From: a bacterium | GTDB taxonomy: Bacteria > Planctomycetota > SKW154 > DAOVDS01 | Assembly: GCA_030669415.1 (NCBI GenBank) | Contig: DAOVDS010000005.1 | Coordinates: 1 to 36,320, forward strand | Direction of reading: 5' to 3' | DNA length: 36,320 bases | In this document: one piece after another, positions 5,386 to 25,632 of the stretch | Layout: every line of letters begins with the position of its first letter | How positions within the stretch are numbered: position 1 is the stretch's first letter | The notes under the pieces: generated by a model | Database searches by the model: none | Seen by the model: the letters and a program-made list of their open reading frames with translations, nothing else | Told to the model about the DNA's origin: nothing | Program-made: the position numbers and the translations under genes

Positions 5386-5491
5386 CCCACTGGCACAGGC
5401 CGGTGTCCCGACGGCCTATGGATAGAATAGGGACTATCTATAGGTAAAAGCGACCTTGCGGCAGTCTAATAGTGTGAGGGATGGTGTGAGA

Positions 5492-6811
5492 ATGAATCTG
5501 CGAACCCCGGCTCTCATCTCGATTCTGGTTTTGCTGGCTCTGGGCACCGTGAGGGCTGATGTCATTGTGCTCAGAGACGGCAGGAGTCTTGAGGGGAAGA
5601 TTATCAAGGAGACTGACGAGACTCTGACGCTCCGGCTCAAGTACGGCGAGGTTGAAATCAGCAAGTCGCACATCATTGAAATCAGGCGTGGCTTGACGGC
5701 GCTTGATAAGTACAAGAAAAAGGCGGCCAAGGTAGAGAACACGGCCCAGGCGCACTACGAGCTGGGCCAGTGGTGCGCGGGCAAAGAGTTGAGGGAGGAG
5801 GCGAAGAAGCACTACGGAAAGGCTCTTGAGATTGACCCTTCCTTCTCGCTTGCGGGAAAGGCGCTCGGTTACGAGAAAGCTGGCGGGAAATGGCTGCCGC
5901 CGGACGAGGCGAAGAAAGCGCGCGGGCTGGTGAAGTTCGAGGGCAAGTGGATACCGAAAGAGGAGCGCGATGCCAGGCTCGCGGAGCGGGATGGAAAAAA
6001 ACAGGAGGAGTTTCGCAAGGAGTACGGGGTTGGGCCGGCGTTCTTTGTCTCGAAGCGAAAGAACTTCATCCTCGTATGCAACCTGCCTGAAAAGAAGAGG
6101 AAGGAGCTGATAGAGGCGGCTGGCGCGCTGTACGCGGCCCACAGCGAGCGTTTCAAGGAGCTTTTCGTGAAGGGCCGGAACTGGCCGCTTGTCATTTTCG
6201 CCTTCAGCAACAGAGAGGAGTACAGGGAGTGGGTCAAGAAGGAGGGACTGGAGAAAGCGGTTGACTGCTTCGGCTTCTACTCCGGGAGGAAGCAGAGGGC
6301 ATACCTGTTTGAGGGTGCTTCTCCGGATGTTGTCCACATGCTGCTTCACGAGTTCACACACCAGATATATGTTGAAAGAATGATGGAACGGGGGGCGCGG
6401 TCGAACGCCTGGATTTTCGAGGGATTTGCCGAGTTCTTCGAAGGTCACGATATCAAGGATGGCAGGCTCGGCAAGTCAAAGCCGCACATCACGAACCGGT
6501 ACACTGCGAAAAACGCCGCGAAGGAAGGCAAGCTTATTCCGATTGAGAAGATGATAGCGGCCGACCAGATATCGGAGCTCTTCGGCGGGGAGTACAGTGC
6601 GCAGGAGTGTTATATCGCTTACGCGCAGGCGTGGGCGATGGTGTACTACCTGCTGGAGGGCGACGGAGGGAAGCACAGGACCAAGTTCATGCGGTTTATG
6701 AAGAAGGACCTGAGGGGCGAGGGAACGCCGGAGGAGTTCAAGCGGATATTCGGCTCTGACCTCGACAAGTTTCAGAACAGGCTGAAGAGATTCCTGAAAG
6801 GACTCAAGTGA
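5492..6811 (+). CDS. Secreted gluzincin-like (DUF1570-type) protein with N-terminal LSm/SH3-like domain and TPR-like region
   Basis: Signal peptide; ADVIVLRDGRSLEGKIIKETDETLTLRLKYGEVEI; HEFTHQ plus EGFAEFFE metallopeptidase motifs; ATG at 5492 chosen over the ORF-track start 5456. Confidence 0.75.
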   Translation: MNLRTPALISILVLLALGTVRADVIVLRDGRSLEGKIIKETDETLTLRLKYGEVEISKSHIIEIRRGLTALDKYKKKAAKVENTAQAHYELGQWCAGKELREEAKKHYGKALEIDPSFSLAGKALGYEKAGGKWLPPDEAKKARGLVKFEGKWIPKEERDARLAERDGKKQEEFRKEYGVGPAFFVSKRKNFILVCNLPEKKRKELIEAAGALYAAHSERFKELFVKGRNWPLVIFAFSNREEYREWVKKEGLEKAVDCFGFYSGRKQRAYLFEGASPDVVHMLLHEFTHQIYVERMMERGARSNAWIFEGFAEFFEGHDIKDGRLGKSKPHITNRYTAKNAAKEGKLIPIEKMIAADQISELFGGEYSAQECYIAYAQAWAMVYYLLEGDGGKHRTKFMRFMKKDLRGEGTPEEFKRIFGSDLDKFQNRLKRFLKGLK

Positions 6812-7423: not shown

Positions 7424-8929
7424 TTACTTGATTCTGACAATCACTGTGCCGGCGGCCTTTTCGGTGCACGCCAGGGCAGGTTTCTGCAATTGGCCAATAG
7501 TGTTGTCGCGGACGTAGCGCTCGACAGGCCATTCGAGGAAGGTCACCAGCTCCTCGGCGCTTACTGCCTTGTCGGCGTCTATGTCGGCCGGCCCGGCGAG
7601 GGCCTTGATAAGCTGCGAGGTGAACACGCCATGGCCGAGCTTCTCGAACTCGTGGCCGCCCTGGCTGGCGCCGCAGGAGCTTACAGTTGCGACAGAGGCG
7701 TTTTCAGTCAGGGCCTTCGGGAAAACCTGGATGGCGGGCCCGCTGAGCACGAGGCCGCGGCTTCCCTCGCCCGCGAAGCCGGTGTCGAGGACAATCACGC
7801 GGTTCTTGGCCTGGACGCCCTCAACAAGAGAATGGAGTTCTTCAAGTGTTAGCATGGAGTTCGCGTCCGTGCTGTCGGGGAAGGCGAGATAGTGTTTGCC
7901 ACCCACGCTCGCGCCGGGTCCTGCGAAGTAGACCATAAAGTCGATTATCTCAATGTGTTCCCGGGCGGAGAATTCTTCGACAGCCCCGCGCAAATCCTTG
8001 AGAGTCGCCACCTCACCCGTAAGGAGCTTCACTTCCGAGTAATCGGAGGCGGAATTTTTGAGCAAATCCGCAAATCCGGTCGCATCGGCCTGGGCGTATT
8101 TGAGCTTCGGCAGCAGCGGGACCCCGGACTTGTTGACCCCGACCACAATTGCGAAGGACTTCTTCTCCGGGGGCGGCTGGGGGATTTTGTACATCTCGTC
8201 AATCAACTTGAGCTGCAGGTCCTGCATGGCGTGAGGTCCGACGACGGCCGCGGCTTTCTGGTAGTTGCTTTCGTCGAAGGAACCGGCGCCCGTCAGAATG
8301 CTTCCGATAAAGTACTCGTGTGTCTTCAGGCCCCTCTGGATGTCATCGAGCTCGCGGGAGGCCTTCCCATCAATGAGCTTCTGCCACAGGATGGAGCTAT
8401 TTGTGGTTCGCTTCAAGGTCATAAGGATGCCAATGTCTGCGGAATAGACCTCGTCCCCGACCAGCCAGGAGAGCCAGGGACTGAAGAGCCACACAATGAC
8501 TGTCCCGCCGCCGCGCGTGCCGTGGTCGTAGGCCACGTTGTAGCGGACCAGGCTTGCCGTAAGGAGCAAATCCGCCCCCTCGTTCCTTGCCAGCTCCAGC
8601 GCCAGCGCCTCGTCGGAGGCATCGATGGTCTGAAGCTCCTCGAACACCTCGAAGTCACGCAGGGCCTGGGCGATTTCAGCTCGCAGGGCGCCTGTATCAG
8701 CTTTCACAACGGCGCCGTGCTCCCCCTCGGGCTTCCGGGTTCGCCGTACGGCGAATTCGTCCACGACAGGGGCGAATGCCACCGAGTAGCGAAGCGGGCG
8801 TTCGTGGCTGCTCCTGAGCTGCGATGCTCCGGGCGCCTCTGTCAGCTTGACGGGTGCCGTGGCGCCACAGCCACCTGCCACGGTTAGTGCAAGAATCAGC
8901 GCAATCAACAACAAGCTTCTCCTGGGCAC
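7424..8929 (-). CDS. Lipoprotein with C-terminal caspase-fold (peptidase C14-like) domain, predicted catalytically inactive
   Basis: GTG start after AGGAGG; lipobox VAGGC; KKSFAIVVGVNKSGVPLLPKLKYAQADATGFADLL, YFAGPGASVGGKHYLAFPD, VIVLDTGFAGEGSRG, GHGVFTSQLIKAL. Confidence 0.8.
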   Translation of the reverse strand: MPRRSLLLIALILALTVAGGCGATAPVKLTEAPGASQLRSSHERPLRYSVAFAPVVDEFAVRRTRKPEGEHGAVVKADTGALRAEIAQALRDFEVFEELQTIDASDEALALELARNEGADLLLTASLVRYNVAYDHGTRGGGTVIVWLFSPWLSWLVGDEVYSADIGILMTLKRTTNSSILWQKLIDGKASRELDDIQRGLKTHEYFIGSILTGAGSFDESNYQKAAAVVGPHAMQDLQLKLIDEMYKIPQPPPEKKSFAIVVGVNKSGVPLLPKLKYAQADATGFADLLKNSASDYSEVKLLTGEVATLKDLRGAVEEFSAREHIEIIDFMVYFAGPGASVGGKHYLAFPDSTDANSMLTLEELHSLVEGVQAKNRVIVLDTGFAGEGSRGLVLSGPAIQVFPKALTENASVATVSSCGASQGGHEFEKLGHGVFTSQLIKALAGPADIDADKAVSAEELVTFLEWPVERYVRDNTIGQLQKPALACTEKAAGTVIVRIK

Positions 8930-8948
8930 GTCGGTTCCTCCTGAGCAT

Positions 8949-9070
8949 AGAATCTACAATAGAGAATACAGAACACAGTAGACAGAATACAGACGGGATG
9001 CGGATGCGCGAAGCGCGACAATTTCCATTCTGTATCCTGTATGCTTCATTCTGTATTCTTATACTACATT
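8949..9070. repeat. Heptad-period (AGAATAC consensus) repeat with inverted arms
   Basis: AGAATCT ACAATAG AGAATAC AGAACAC AGTAGAC AGAATAC AGACGGG at 8949-8997; inverted arm 9025-9070. Confidence 0.85.
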
Positions 9071-9074
9071 GGGC

Positions 9075-12000
9075 TTACGGTGTAAAGTATCCTTCGTCCC
9101 ATTGCACATAACCTTTGTCGCGGTCCATGAGGACCTCGCCGCTCCAGGAAGACATGCCGAATCCCGGCACGATGTTCCCTTCTATCTGGAACTGCTGTGT
9201 TTCGCCTATTTCAGGCTGGTTGAATACCGCCGGCAGCACAGGTACCGTGATGCTTGCAGAGAGGCCTGTCTGGGGTATGGGCTTGATAATCATCCAGAAA
9301 AAGGGGCGCGGATGAGCAAAGCCGCGTGTAAGACCTATCATGTAAACCCCACTCTTACCCTGCTCGCTGTTTGTCCATATCATATTCGTGGGCAAGCCGA
9401 CATTGGTCTGCATGTGAACGGGGTTTATCGGGTAAGGGATGTCCGGCAGGGTCGCGTCATACCTGCGGGGGTAGGAAGTTAGGTCGCGAAGGCTGATAGC
9501 CGATTCCCATTCCGTGCCATCCGGGTTCTGCCCGTCCGCCCTTAACCACAGCCCAAGAGCATCGATAGTGAAATTGGGAGGGTTGGCAAATGTGATACCA
9601 TAATGGTACAAAGTCGGGTCTATCGCATCTATTGCAGTTGACCCCTGGCCCAGCTTGACGAGCACCTGTTCAGACCATGAATTATCGGTCGAAAAGCCGT
9701 ATGGTTCAGCATTGACCCAATCCACTGTGGCGCCAGCCGTAAGGTTGCTCGGCAGCCGGATGTCACTTGGGTCTGTGCTGTGCCGGATGGGAGACAGGGG
9801 AGTTGTCGATGAAGTTGAGAAGTCAATTATCGGCGCCTGCAGGAAAGGCGGAGAACCGGCGGGATTCACCTGAAAATGGCCTGAGAAGTAGGCGTACTCG
9901 AACAGGTGATTGCCTGACTGGGGTCCGTAGAAACCGGTAACAGCAGCGTAGTCTTCCCGGTCGCTTGCTATCAGGGAATAGTTTTCCAGGCTCGGGCCGT
10001 CGAAAGGCGTGTTGGGGACCGTCTGGTCGTCCGAAAGACCGGAGGCGAAATCATCTTCGATGTTGAACCACTGCCCCCGGTAGTCGCTCACTTCTACCCA
10101 CCCGGAGTTGCCGGTCGGCAGGTTCATCACTTCGCCGTATAGAGTGAAGTTATTGCCATCCATATCATTTGGGTCAATAAGAGGTATCGTCGCATATGCA
10201 GACTGTACCTGGTCTATGGTCATGTAGGGATATCCGGTATAGCATATTGTTACCTTGGCAGGAACCGGAGGGTTGTTGAAGACTACCTGGCCATCGGCAT
10301 CGGTGAGCAGGTATCCGGTAGGGTCGTCGCCAAGGAAGACCACGACACCCTGAACCCCGACCTGGGTCCCGAAGTCAACTACCGTTACTGTCAGGGTGCC
10401 GCTCTGCTTGCCAGCGGCGCCGAAGACAGGCACGCGCCCCTGGGTGTCCTGGGGGCTCCACAGCCAGAATTCCCGCCACTCGCTCTCGAGCATGTACTGG
10501 GTTCCGAGCTCGAGTTCACTCAGGGCGAAGTCATCGTAGTTCAACGGGCCTGGGGTGTGGTTGGACTCAATGCGCCACACCAGCTTGATGGCGGGGTCTG
10601 CTGTCGGGTCGTCAGTGTACTCCAGTACCTTGAACGGGGCTGTGTTGGGGATTCTGGGCAGCGTTGCGGTGTGGATACCTCCCTGCCTGACGATTATCCA
10701 CTCTTCGTTGGTTTTCGTGTTCACTATTTCAAGGGTGTGTATTCCGAAGGTGTTTGAATCGGACCATTCGAAGGTCGGTATAAGCGAAGTGACAACACCG
10801 CCGGTGCCTGGTTTGTCCAGTACCGGCGTGTCAGGGAAGACGAAATCAGGCAGGTCGGTGTTATAGTCGAACTTCTTCATGCCTATTATCTTTCGGCCGT
10901 ACATGTCCCTCAGGTGCAGGAGCACCCAGTACTCATCGGAGGTGACGGCGAAATAGCCCGGCTGGATGGACGAGTAGGGGAAAGGTCCCCCGTATATCGC
11001 GGTGAGGGGGAACACGCCGTAGCCGCACATGAACCGGTCAACCTCAGCGCGGGTCCGGCCCATGATGAGACAGCCTTCACCGCCCCGCCATATCAGCCCG
11101 TCCGGCGGGTAGAAACCGCCGGGCAGTGTCACGTCACCCGAATCGACCCGAATTGCAGTGGGCGGTGTCAAAGGGAAACCGATGTCCTCAGTATAAGACA
11201 AGCCCCCGGTTAGTGGGCCGAGGTTGTCTCTCACGGCGAAGTTGCTGAAAGCGCCGCCCGTGTTGTCTATTGCGGAAAGCGTGTAGAACTTGTTGGGCTG
11301 CACCCGGACAGTGTAATCACCGTCAGTTATGTTGATGTCGGTGCCGGCCCAGTCCACAAGCTCGGACCCGTGGAGGAAACCACTCGTGGGCACCGGGCTT
11401 ACCGAACCCGATACAGTGCCGAACTGCGGGCTCTTTTTGTCGGAGAGAGGGATGCTGAGCCGTGCAGCATCGACGTCACAGATGGTGAACATGGGATAAC
11501 CCGGGCAGATGACGGTTACGGTCTGCGGGCCGGAAACGCCGTTGAACGTGACCTCGCCCTGCGGGTCGGTGCTGCTGACAGCCTCGGTGTTGTAGCCGCG
11601 CACGACCATTGCGCCGCTTACCGGCGTCAGGTCGCTTTCCAGGTACACTGAAACCTGAAGCGCGCCGCTTGCAGGCCCACCCCCCGCGCCGCCGCGGTGG
11701 ATGATGCTTTTTTGGATGTAAGTGGATTCGTTTCCGGCGTCGTCGCGTGCGTATATGTCAATGTCATTGCTGTCGGCGACCTTCAGGTCGTAGTCTATCC
11801 GGTATGTGCCGCTGCTGAGGCCGTTGTATGACTGGCTGGAGCTGCCGCCTTCCAGATACAGGTTGCAGTCGGAGTCCACGGTTATGCTCATCTCGAGCGT
11901 GCGCAGTTCGTAGTACTGGGGCAGTTGCGGCGGGGCGGCAATGCTGATAGCCGGCTCTGCTGTGTCCTTGTCTGCCGAGCCGGTTGTTATCTCGGAACAG

Positions 12001-13115
12001 GAATCTCCCCGCCAAATCATGGCCTCCAGCGTGATGGGGCCATCATTGAGGAGTGAGGCGTCGATTCCTGTTATAGTAATCTCGGACGGCGCGGGGATCG
12101 AGCTGACTTGCCTGTCGCCGTAAGTGTAGTTTGAACCATCCGAAAGAACTACAACGACCGAGTTCCCGAACTCCACGTTCGAGTTGAGGCCCACCTTCAC
12201 AGTGACGCTGCTTTCTGTGGCGATGTTTATCCAGTCTGCCGGGTTGCTAACACCTGCCGGAATCATCACATAGGTAGGTGTGATATCTATTGTATGGAAG
12301 GAGCTTGTGAAATCGCCGCCATCCAGATTATATCCATCCGTGGACTGAACACTGCCCAGGACGTGGACCTCGTAGTGGTCGCCGGCTACCAGGGCGTCGG
12401 TGGGGTCGAAGACAAACTCGCGAAAATCGGCATCCCAGGAGACACTGCCGTTAAGGGAAACGCCGGAACCCACATGGTAGATATAGAAGCTGGCGCTGGT
12501 TATCGTGGCCGTGTTCATGGGCTTGGAGAAAAGCACGCGAGCCTGGAGGTATGTCTGAAACGGTACTGTGGAACTATCCTGCGGCACTACGCTGACAATA
12601 TAGGGAGAGGATGTCGAGCTGCCTGCGGTCCTGAACGATGAGACGAAGTTGTTGATGACTTTGCCTGGCATCCCGCCCTGGCTGACGTTGTTTATCCTGA
12701 CCGTGATGTCTTCGTTGCCGGGATAAGCGCCGCTTGGAACGAATATCACCTTGGTGCTGTGGTCGTAGAAATAGAAGTTGCCACTGACGGGACCGAACGG
12801 GGAGCCAACCGCGAAGTTCGTACTGTGGATTGTAGACTGGTCTACGCAATGACTGAAGATAACAGTTATAGGCGCGTAAAGGTCCACTCCGTTTTCGCCG
12901 TCGAGGGGCTCGATTGACACAACCACGAAGGGTGGTTCCTCGTGGTCATCACCACCGCCACCCGCGCCGGCTGCAATTCCTGCCAGTGGTATAATCCCGA
13001 ACGGGCCGCAGCCGCCTGCGGCGGCAGAGCAGGAGAGCAGGAGACAGGTGAACAGTAGATATAAGAATCCTGCTCGACTGCGGTCACCTGTTCTACTGTT
13101 CAGCTTTTCTCTCAT
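9075..13115 (-). CDS. Giant surface lipoprotein with Big_5/SbsA-like Ig domain and duplicated carboxypeptidase-regulatory-like modules
   Basis: ATG at 13115 with GGAGG RBS, signal peptide FLYLLFTCLLLSCSAAAGGC; N-terminal PFVVVSIEPLDGENGVDLYAPITVIFSHCVD Ig-like region; the ORF-track start 13241 lies in repeat sequence. Confidence 0.8.
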   Translation of the reverse strand: MREKLNSRTGDRSRAGFLYLLFTCLLLSCSAAAGGCGPFGIIPLAGIAAGAGGGGDDHEEPPFVVVSIEPLDGENGVDLYAPITVIFSHCVDQSTIHSTNFAVGSPFGPVSGNFYFYDHSTKVIFVPSGAYPGNEDITVRINNVSQGGMPGKVINNFVSSFRTAGSSTSSPYIVSVVPQDSSTVPFQTYLQARVLFSKPMNTATITSASFYIYHVGSGVSLNGSVSWDADFREFVFDPTDALVAGDHYEVHVLGSVQSTDGYNLDGGDFTSSFHTIDITPTYVMIPAGVSNPADWINIATESSVTVKVGLNSNVEFGNSVVVVLSDGSNYTYGDRQVSSIPAPSEITITGIDASLLNDGPITLEAMIWRGDSCSEITTGSADKDTAEPAISIAAPPQLPQYYELRTLEMSITVDSDCNLYLEGGSSSQSYNGLSSGTYRIDYDLKVADSNDIDIYARDDAGNESTYIQKSIIHRGGAGGGPASGALQVSVYLESDLTPVSGAMVVRGYNTEAVSSTDPQGEVTFNGVSGPQTVTVICPGYPMFTICDVDAARLSIPLSDKKSPQFGTVSGSVSPVPTSGFLHGSELVDWAGTDINITDGDYTVRVQPNKFYTLSAIDNTGGAFSNFAVRDNLGPLTGGLSYTEDIGFPLTPPTAIRVDSGDVTLPGGFYPPDGLIWRGGEGCLIMGRTRAEVDRFMCGYGVFPLTAIYGGPFPYSSIQPGYFAVTSDEYWVLLHLRDMYGRKIIGMKKFDYNTDLPDFVFPDTPVLDKPGTGGVVTSLIPTFEWSDSNTFGIHTLEIVNTKTNEEWIIVRQGGIHTATLPRIPNTAPFKVLEYTDDPTADPAIKLVWRIESNHTPGPLNYDDFALSELELGTQYMLESEWREFWLWSPQDTQGRVPVFGAAGKQSGTLTVTVVDFGTQVGVQGVVVFLGDDPTGYLLTDADGQVVFNNPPVPAKVTICYTGYPYMTIDQVQSAYATIPLIDPNDMDGNNFTLYGEVMNLPTGNSGWVEVSDYRGQWFNIEDDFASGLSDDQTVPNTPFDGPSLENYSLIASDREDYAAVTGFYGPQSGNHLFEYAYFSGHFQVNPAGSPPFLQAPIIDFSTSSTTPLSPIRHSTDPSDIRLPSNLTAGATVDWVNAEPYGFSTDNSWSEQVLVKLGQGSTAIDAIDPTLYHYGITFANPPNFTIDALGLWLRADGQNPDGTEWESAISLRDLTSYPRRYDATLPDIPYPINPVHMQTNVGLPTNMIWTNSEQGKSGVYMIGLTRGFAHPRPFFWMIIKPIPQTGLSASITVPVLPAVFNQPEIGETQQFQIEGNIVPGFGMSSWSGEVLMDRDKGYVQWDEGYFTP
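13024..13104. repeat. Octad-like repeat copy lying inside the signal-peptide coding region
   Basis: Shares TCCTGCTC(G/C)ACTGCGGTC (17/18) and flanking AGAGCAGG, TGAACAG and CCTGTTCTACT segments with 19376..19460. Confidence 0.75.
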
Positions 13116-13193
13116 TACTCGTCCTCCGTGCAAATCCCCACAAGGTACATTATATACGACGAGTGTTGGCGGGGAGATATTCTCTCTTTGCAA

Positions 13194-13281
13194 AGAATAC
13201 AGTATACAGAAGGTCAGGATACAGGTTCCTGCATTCTGCATTCTGTGTTCTGTATTCTGTATCCTTCATTCTGTATTCTAC
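13194..13281. repeat. Heptad-period (AGAATAC) repeat, second copy
   Basis: CTGTATCCTTCATTCTGTATTC (13257-13278) matches 9037-9058 at 21/22; the left arm AGAATAC AGTATAC is inverted relative to the right arm. Confidence 0.85.
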
Positions 13282-13305
13282 ATTCTATTAACCGCCGCAG
13301 GCGGG

Positions 13306-23307: not shown

Positions 23308-25632
23308 ATGAGAAAGCTGCCCCGCATCCTGGTGATATTATTCCTCCTGACCGGTTGTGAGGCCAAGCAAGAACAGGATATTCAAGAAGTCCGCAGCGCC
23401 AAAGAACACATCACCGCTGGTGCTGAAAAAATGTCCCCTGCCAGAGAGAGTTTGCAGGTTGACCCTGAAAAGATTCGCGCGCTCTTTGCGGCGGTGGCGT
23501 CTGAGAACCTCGACAGGGTGAAAGAGCTTCTTGCCGGCGGCGTTGATGTGGATGTAAAGGATGCAGGAGGGCAGACCGCCCTTGCAAAGGTGTTGAGTAC
23601 AGAATACTGGGCAAGCACCAAAGAGCAGCTAATCGAGCTTCTCATCAAGGCAGGCGCTGACCCGAATACGGCGGGTGCGCAGGGAAACACAGTTCTACAT
23701 ATAGCTGTATGGTGGGGTGAAGCTGGTTTGGTCAAGCTGTTGATTGAGAAAGGTGCGGATGTAAACGCGAGGAACGCGGACGGGGAAACACCCTTGCATA
23801 ATGCCTTCGAACATGCGGGTTGGCACGGCGAGTTGCTGCCAGTCGTCAGGTACCTGATCTGCGCAGGGGCGGATGTAGAGGCGAGAAACCCGGAAGGAAA
23901 CAAACCCCTCCACATAGCTCTTGGACTGGACGAACCAGAACTGGTCAAGCTCATCCTCGAAAAAGGCGCTGATGTTGTAGAAAAAGATTCTAAAGGAAAA
24001 ACGCCCCTGCACCTCTCTTTGGAAGAGGAGGATATGGTTGACCCGGATCTGGTCCAGCTTCTGGTTGACAGGGGTGCAGATGTAAAGACGAAACACCCGG
24101 ACGGCTCAATGCCTCTTGCGATAGTTGCCTCATACGGCAGAAGACAGCTCGTTGAGCTTTTCCTTGACAATGGGGCGGACGCAAAGGCCAAGAGCGAATG
24201 GGGCGGAACTGCTCTCCATTCGGCAGCAGGAGGCGGACATACCGAAATCATCAAGCTCCTTGTTGCCCGCGGCGCCGACGTAAATGCAAAAGGACAGTGG
24301 GGACAAACAGCCTTGTTCGCAGTGCTTGACCAGGACTCGGATTGGGGTGGAGCGAGCCGGGCGGAGGTGGTCGAGACCCTTCTTGCGTGCGGCGCCGACA
24401 TGACCGCTAAAGATGAGTACGGGGATACCGTTCTCGTACGGGCGGCAGAAGACGGTGATGAAGGGCTGGTCAAGATTCTCCTTGCCAACGGTGCCGGACA
24501 GGATGAGAAAGACAGGGAAGCGGCGCTCTACGGGGCTGCATACGAGGGCGAGCTGGAGGCTGTCGAGGTTCTTGTCGCTGCCGGTGTGAGCGCGGACTCC
24601 GCGCAGGCCCTGCACGTCGCGGCGCAGATGGGCCACGCTGACGTGGTGAAATTCCTTATCCGCAAGGGCGCGGACCCGGCAAGACGCGCCGAGGACGGGA
24701 CGACACCTCTTCACTCCCTGGCGCGGGGCTGCGAGAGACACGGATATACGAAGATACAGGAACACCTGGAAGTCGGGCGGCTTCTTCTGGCCCGGGGTGC
24801 GGACATAAACGCGAGGGACGAGAAGGGCATGACCCCGCTTCACCGGGCGGCGGGCGCCGGGTACGACGAAATGGCTGAGTTCCTTCTCGCCAACAGCGCC
24901 AGCGTGAACACGGCTGACAAGGAGGGCCGCACACCTCTTGATATCGCGATGGAGCGCGCCGACATCACCCTGGCGGCCCTGATTCGCAACCGCGGCGGGA
25001 GAACGCGCAAGACCTCTCCCGGGACCATGCTGGAAGCCGCCATGCACGGTGATACTGCCGGAGTGAAGAAGTACCTCGAGGCGGGGACGGATATCAACTC
25101 GCAGGACACGCACCGCAGAAGGGCTATACACTATGCCGCCTCAGATGGTAACAGGGAGCTGGCAGTGCTTCTTATTGATGCGGGCGCGGAACTCAACACC
25201 AAGGACTCCTGGGGGCTGACACCCCTGCATTACGCCGCGCTGTGCGGGCGGGACGAGATTGTCAGACTCCTTCTCGACAAGGGCGCCGATATCAAGGCTT
25301 ACAGCCGCCACGCGGCCGGCTCGGGCGGGTTCAGAGCCCTGCATTTCGCTGCCGCGAACGGGCACAGCAAGACTGCCGCCCTGCTGCTGCGCAAGGGGGC
25401 GGACATAAACGCCCAGCCCAAGCAGGGCGGGAGAACAGCGCTTCACCTGGCGGTCATGGCCCGGCGCAAAGGTGTTGTTGAGCTTCTGATTGGCAAGGGT
25501 GCGGATGTGAACGCGAAGGATGGTTACGGCTACACGCCAATGAACCTGTCGACTTCGAAGGAGATAAAGGACCTGCTTCGGCGCAGTGGCGGACTTACGT
25601 CAAAAGAACTGCGCCGGACGAACGGGGAATAA
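23308..25632 (+). CDS. Ankyrin-repeat lipoprotein
   Basis: Lipobox MRKLPRILVILFLLTGC; many ankyrin units such as DGETPLHNAFEHAG and GWTPLHxAAxxGHxxIVxLLLxKGADVNAK-type. Confidence 0.95.
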   Translation: MRKLPRILVILFLLTGCEAKQEQDIQEVRSAKEHITAGAEKMSPARESLQVDPEKIRALFAAVASENLDRVKELLAGGVDVDVKDAGGQTALAKVLSTEYWASTKEQLIELLIKAGADPNTAGAQGNTVLHIAVWWGEAGLVKLLIEKGADVNARNADGETPLHNAFEHAGWHGELLPVVRYLICAGADVEARNPEGNKPLHIALGLDEPELVKLILEKGADVVEKDSKGKTPLHLSLEEEDMVDPDLVQLLVDRGADVKTKHPDGSMPLAIVASYGRRQLVELFLDNGADAKAKSEWGGTALHSAAGGGHTEIIKLLVARGADVNAKGQWGQTALFAVLDQDSDWGGASRAEVVETLLACGADMTAKDEYGDTVLVRAAEDGDEGLVKILLANGAGQDEKDREAALYGAAYEGELEAVEVLVAAGVSADSAQALHVAAQMGHADVVKFLIRKGADPARRAEDGTTPLHSLARGCERHGYTKIQEHLEVGRLLLARGADINARDEKGMTPLHRAAGAGYDEMAEFLLANSASVNTADKEGRTPLDIAMERADITLAALIRNRGGRTRKTSPGTMLEAAMHGDTAGVKKYLEAGTDINSQDTHRRRAIHYAASDGNRELAVLLIDAGAELNTKDSWGLTPLHYAALCGRDEIVRLLLDKGADIKAYSRHAAGSGGFRALHFAAANGHSKTAALLLRKGADINAQPKQGGRTALHLAVMARRKGVVELLIGKGADVNAKDGYGYTPMNLSTSKEIKDLLRRSGGLTSKELRRTNGE

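Follow-up and report, generated by a model that had tools for sequence, protein, structure and literature searches.

The locus and its product

The window, namely the whole stretch of 36,320 nucleotides that we analyzed, comes from an assembly of 4.15 Mb in 448 contigs that is 92% complete. Four of its genes lie on the minus strand in the order kinase-FGE, Ig-like protein, pseudo-caspase and small lipoprotein, with the kinase-FGE gene near the pseudo-caspase gene and not adjacent to it (Table 1). Both domains of the candidate kinase-FGE partner are detected by Pfam (E-value 3.7e-53 for the kinase and 2.2e-44 for the FGE-sulfatase). The strand and coordinates of the pseudo-caspase open reading frame were re-checked and are correct. 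Its start codon at position 8929 is preceded by a perfect AGGAGG lying 7 nt upstream (approximately 8937-8942).

Table 1. Features of the pseudo-caspase locus in the window
Feature	Coordinates	Strand	Description and evidence
Candidate operon partner, 1123 aa	13306..16677	-	Ser/Thr kinase at residues 210-461, one TM at ~520-538, C-terminal FGE-sulfatase-like domain at 912-1121
Large Big_5 Ig-like protein, 1388 aa, lipobox-like GGCG	9075..13241	-	Pfam E 6.1e-21; between the kinase-FGE and pseudo-caspase genes
Pseudo-caspase lipoprotein gene	7424..8929	-	501 aa, GTG start; translation and family alignment
Signal peptide and lipobox, last residue Cys21 (AGG/C)	8867..8929	-	Gly20/Cys21 nearly invariant, 12 relatives
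N-terminal CsgG/PelC-like alpha/beta domain, ~residues 22-248, family-defining	8186..8866	-	AF2 model and Foldseek
Caspase-fold (Peptidase_C14) domain, residues 259-488	7466..8155	-	Pfam; Foldseek to MALT1, GSU0716, Yca1
Asp282, counterpart of the first metacaspase S1-pocket Asp	8084..8086	-	D in 92% of pseudo-members
Pro338 at the catalytic His position	7916..7918	-	Motif YFAGPGA; alignment
Asp382, counterpart of the second S1-pocket Asp	7784..7786	-	D in 98% of pseudo-members
Gly384 at the catalytic Cys position	7778..7780	-	Motif DTGFAG; alignment
EF-hand-like loop DIDADKAVSAEE, residues 449-460	7550..7585	-	Sequence and family alignment
Small putative lipoprotein, 185 aa	6841..7398	-	Same strand as the pseudo-caspase gene, 25 nt downstream of it; no family above cut-off

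Elsewhere in the window lie a DUF1570/Peptidase_MA-like protein with a HEFTH motif (5456-6811) and a 774-aa putative lipoprotein composed of ankyrin repeats (23308-25632). The former resembles by eye a protein encoded beside one of the paralogs described below (C284; L115:796-2193), which has neither an HExxH motif nor a Pfam match. In addition, an intergenic heptad element, AGAATACAGAATACAGA, which is dispersed and in part palindromic, flanks the Ig-like gene on both sides (8958-9059 and 13194-13282). With at most one mismatch allowed, it has 52 matches in the genome versus 0 for the reversed control, and some of these form opposite-strand pairs approximately 78 nt apart.

The pseudo-caspase has the signal of a bacterial lipoprotein, a hydrophobic N-terminus followed by the lipobox cysteine, and from its sequence it is predicted to be extracytoplasmic and lipid-anchored. 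Peptidase_C14 (PF00656) is the sole Pfam family in the protein, with 36.2 bits against a cut-off of 21.4 (E-value 6.6e-9), and the N-terminal domain has no Pfam match. The caspase fold that the initial annotation had assigned to the C-terminal half was borne out by this profile search, by the family alignment and by the fold comparison. A sequence search of the PDB with the window protein alone returned weak EF-Tu noise only, and the alignment profile reached metacaspase-1 at an E-value of 0.02.

Two AF2 models were built from a two-sequence alignment; their mean pLDDT is 52 and 53.5 and they are weak beyond the p20 core, although the core of the N-terminal domain reaches approximately 70-85 and the p20 core is also better than the rest. 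With the full-length model, Foldseek retrieved CsgG (4uv2) and PelC (5t10/5t11) at E-values of approximately 1e-6 to 1e-7, matches of a medium-confidence model with high rmsd and no sequence-family match, as well as MALT1. The model of the caspase half, confident only in the p20 core, retrieved MALT1 (best E-value 1.9e-7), GSU0716, Arabidopsis metacaspase 9 and Yca1. Since the query-normalized TM-scores are below 0.5, these comparisons support the fold class alone.

When the window protein is aligned with dyad-intact homologs, YFAGPGA and DTGFAG fall at the expected sites, and the Pro and Gly codons read exactly as the initial annotation had them. Both members of the His-Cys dyad that defines an active orthocaspase or metacaspase are therefore replaced. 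The EF-hand-like loop, which had been listed among the signs of a retained fold with a non-proteolytic role, is real and conserved (D449 in 94%, E460 in 87%), but it is common to the inactive and intact groups and equally present in dyad-intact relatives.

Dyad loss and pocket conservation across Planctomycetota

A protein search of the same genome identified 6 further paralogous genes, one of them cut at a contig end; none of them has the dyad. Their YFAG (YYAG in one) is followed by L, V, Y, R, C or C, and their Cys motif is either D-x-G-F or D-x-S-F. With PF00656, this 92% complete assembly yielded hits in four places, all members of the same pseudo-caspase family, and no active caspase homolog.

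We then considered approximately 90 caspase-domain proteins, obtained from their loci through searches of the phylum that covered 41 and 296 genomes and sorted by the presence or absence of the N-terminal domain. The conserved loss of His and Cys that the initial annotation had proposed to look for extends from the paralogs to 64 aligned proteins in all, which lack both residues. Of these, 63 carry the N-terminal CsgG/PelC-like domain, and the remaining one, with no visible N-terminal domain, is a contig-edge fragment. Conversely, 20 of the 21 dyad-intact proteins are caspase homologs without the N-terminal domain. The association between this domain and dyad loss is strong (P-value 3e-17, Fisher test, on counts not corrected for kinship). 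Because the search profile was built from inactive members and at most five candidates per genome were scored in the phylum search, intact proteins with the N-terminal domain may be under-sampled. A scan of genome contigs with a closer family alignment retrieved one named locus, in the Planctomycetota MAG SKW154; another alignment of the family contained no stretch of sufficient conservation for such a scan. Pairwise identity to the window protein within the family is 25-33%. Overall, pseudo-caspases with this N-terminal domain form a family spread over Planctomycetota, of which the window gene is one paralog. A relic or recently broken gene was rejected as an explanation, as full-length open frames with a replaced dyad recur in many genomes.

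The sole N-domain protein with an intact dyad is a 709-aa frame (L019/L140; L140:9998-12109, G011:C136), which groups with the other intact proteins in the tree and is without a kinase-FGE neighbour. Directly downstream of it, on the same strand, adjoins another intact caspase homolog. N-domain relatives without an evident caspase domain also occur. One of 254 aa (L131:1012-1773) lies directly behind an FGE-domain protein (L131:1924-3498), an arrangement that suggests that the N-terminal domain may be the constant partner, and two similar relatives were seen at other loci (L136 and L130).

In a tree made without the two catalytic columns, the clustering of inactive and intact proteins greatly exceeds that obtained with shuffled labels, and many forks are weak. 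Holding the 64 inactive proteins as one clade gave a likelihood 33.9 above that of the free quick tree (p-AU 0.854). These values are compatible with one origin of the inactive proteins but do not prove it.

To describe the conservation of individual columns, we relied on 52 non-redundant inactive members. Among them, Y is the most frequent residue of the His column (37%), ahead of R, V, L, N and other residues, whereas G and S (40% each) fill most of the Cys column, followed by P, A and D; no member scored as inactive has His at the His site or Cys at the Cys site. The acidic pair of the S1 pocket is retained instead (Table 1), and together with Gly337, Phe385 and Arg391 these two Asp residues are 87-98% conserved, far above the family identity to the window protein. 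In particular, Phe385 (87%) and Arg391 (92%) are more conserved in inactive members than in intact homologs. The column of Asp382 is 100% Asp in active homologs too, and this residue may be kept for folding. Asp282 was placed by profile alignment to Yca1, and Asp382 is the Asp two positions before the catalytic Cys; the corresponding residues of TbMC2 are Asp95 and Asp211, respectively (PMC6426788).

The initial annotation had also named the Cys of VSSCGAS and the His of GGHEF as residues that might take the place of the dyad. We rejected them as substitute catalytic residues: C419 is Cys in 12 of the 64 members and H426 is His in 2, and in no member does a His lie within three columns of the His site.

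Linkage to kinase-FGE genes

The N-domain proteins are distinguished also by their gene neighbourhood. An FGE-sulfatase-like domain is encoded directly upstream on the same strand at 43 of the 68 scorable N-domain loci and at none of the 20 loci without the N-terminal domain (P-value 1.3e-7), which leaves 25 N-domain loci without it. According to the domain coordinates of the 43 loci, the FGE domain ends 57 to 662 nt before the N-terminal domain. These linked loci span 15 family codes, and 18 of them belong to a single family (f23). In the genome of the window, 47 matches to kinases and 15 to FGE were counted, so single adjacencies could be due to chance. This genome also has two kinase-FGE genes that no pseudo-caspase follows (C323 and C373). 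The loss of the dyad is family-wide and tied to both the N-terminal domain and the operon partner, which goes beyond what the initial annotation had seen in one gene.

At loci with a sufficiently long flank, the upstream FGE protein usually also bears a Ser/Thr kinase, and Pfam confirmed both domains at ten loci (L110, L112, L116, L117, L122 and L125-L129). Nearly all partners that we inspected have one hydrophobic segment between the kinase and the FGE domain, which places the FGE domain outside the cytoplasm, on the same side of the membrane as the lipoprotein. In 11 partners the FGE-like domain was inspected in the segment that carries the catalytic cysteines of active FGE, and none of them has a Cys pair there. 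Three kinase partners of family f23 (L126, L127 and L128) show HRDLKP and, by a simple pattern, no DFG motif; they are possibly altered or inactive kinases. In the window and at other loci from several families (L111, L114, L116, L120-L122 and L125-L128), large propeller (Kelch/NHL/BNR), Ig-like or beta-helix proteins are encoded next to the pair or next to the pseudo-caspase gene.

Interpretation and relation to known systems

We lean towards a reading in which the window gene encodes a non-proteolytic, lipid-anchored envelope protein that partners a transmembrane kinase-FGE receptor from outside the cytoplasm. Such a partner is probably a sensor of peptides or proteins. Its CsgG/PelC-like domain would serve to anchor the lipoprotein at a membrane or to oligomerize it there. 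A peptide or protein, perhaps with a basic residue in it, would be bound by the caspase fold and left uncut. By touching the outside FGE-like domain, the lipoprotein could then set the activity of the kinase inside, and the large propeller or Ig-like surface proteins may act together with the lipoprotein and the receptor. The role in binding, scaffolding or regulation at the membrane suggested by the initial annotation fits the lipobox, the N-terminal domain and the kinase-receptor neighbourhood.

The main rival assigns the function to the N-terminal domain and a structural role to the caspase fold. The protein would then be a pure scaffold: its caspase fold would be a relic without ligand-pocket function, and its CsgG/PelC-like domain would pair with the FGE receptor as a ring or an anchor. 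The N-domain proteins without an evident caspase domain agree with this picture, especially the 254-aa one just behind an FGE protein, and so does the free drift of the catalytic columns. We nevertheless hold it to be rather unlikely, as it sits poorly with five caspase-fold residues conserved at 87-98% in a family with 25-33% identity.

A component of conflict or cell death, resembling the caspase/FGE/EAD systems of multicellular bacteria, appears improbable. No PADLOC model matches the window protein, which has a lipobox and a predicted extracytoplasmic placement, and a non-exhaustive scan of the neighbourhoods recognized no STAND, MoxR or EAD proteins. This has to be set against the fact that such systems repeatedly contain caspase, kinase and FGE (C-type lectin fold) domains (PMC7159879, PMC10907252) and against the PADLOC kinase models that match the partner kinase, mainly via the generic kinase domain. 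We give slightly less credit still to a principle like that of cFLIP, by which the protein would act as a dominant-negative regulator of active caspase homologs in another part of the cell. Although a dominant-negative role has been proposed for the inactive caspases of bacterial conflict systems (PMC7159879), the PF00656 search of the 92% complete assembly offers no active partner to inhibit, and the protein is predicted to reside outside the cytoplasm. Finally, that the protein is still an enzyme through Cys 383 or Ser 384, as in some paralogs, or through C419/H426 is the least credible of all, for even though a Cys lies within three columns of the lost one in 27 of the 64 members (mostly right in front of it) and the Cys position often holds Ser, none has a His near the His site, C419 and H426 are poorly conserved and the window protein itself has Thr383-Gly384.

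With a non-proteolytic partner of a receptor kinase as the preferred reading, a single odd gene becomes a defined family with a testable partner, as gene order names the receptor kinase as the likely one. To our knowledge, bacterial pseudo-caspases are mostly without assigned function. The drifting catalytic sites and the fixed pocket residues allow a direct mutational test of a dead protease as ligand sensor. Moreover, this reading proposes an input for some of the 47 kinase matches of the genome. More speculatively, outside-in signalling of this kind might be widespread in Planctomycetota: lipid-anchored pseudo-caspases would recognize peptides, leave them uncut and gate the Ser/Thr kinases of receptors bearing an outside, dead-enzyme FGE-like fold. 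A genome would then hold several paralogous sets of such receptors, and every set would have a large propeller or Ig-like surface protein to itself.

Several known systems resemble the locus in part. With CsgG/PelC-like lipoproteins the protein shares the lipobox and, as the Foldseek matches suggest, may share the N-terminal fold, but it has no sequence-family match to them and a caspase-fold domain is appended here. The best NCBIfam match of that domain is caspase_w_EACC1 (NF047832; E-value 3.3e-16), whose curated cut-off of 140 bits is not reached (59.4 bits), so that by the NCBI rule the protein is no member. Many caspase domains in the vWA component of vWA-MoxR ternary conflict systems are inactive, with a presumed role in regulation or binding (PMC7159879). 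Those inactive caspases sit in conflict systems, whereas the protein described here is predicted to be a lipoprotein and its gene is linked to that of a kinase-FGE receptor. No MoxR or vWA genes were seen in the non-exhaustive scan of neighbours, and a VIT/VWA protein is encoded near one locus (L110) on the opposite strand.

A survey of prokaryotic metacaspases (Asplund-Samuelsson et al. 2012) reported that the dyad is kept in only 64% of planctomycete homologs and noted metacaspase-FGE-sulfatase fusions (PMC3501461); its passages on these points mention neither the domain pairing seen here nor a separate kinase-FGE operon partner. There is a likeness, too, with the pseudo-orthocaspases described in 2019 by Klemencic et al. 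(PMC6426788), p20 homologs with a substituted dyad. The window protein shares with them the bacterial caspase fold, the substituted His and Cys and the retained acidic Asp pair of the specificity pocket, and it is predicted to be a pseudo-orthocaspase without proteolysis. Known pseudo-orthocaspases are 90% alphaproteobacterial or cyanobacterial and typically carry Tyr/Ser or Tyr/Asn, and the text does not name Planctomycetes (PMC6426788). Unlike them, the family described here has widely varying sites, a fused N-terminal lipoprotein domain and, often, an adjacent kinase-FGE receptor gene. We found no description of the pairing of such a lipoprotein with a kinase-FGE gene in the open-licence papers searched. 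Pseudo-orthocaspases were already known; the clade of lipoprotein, kinase-linked pseudo-caspases looks new.
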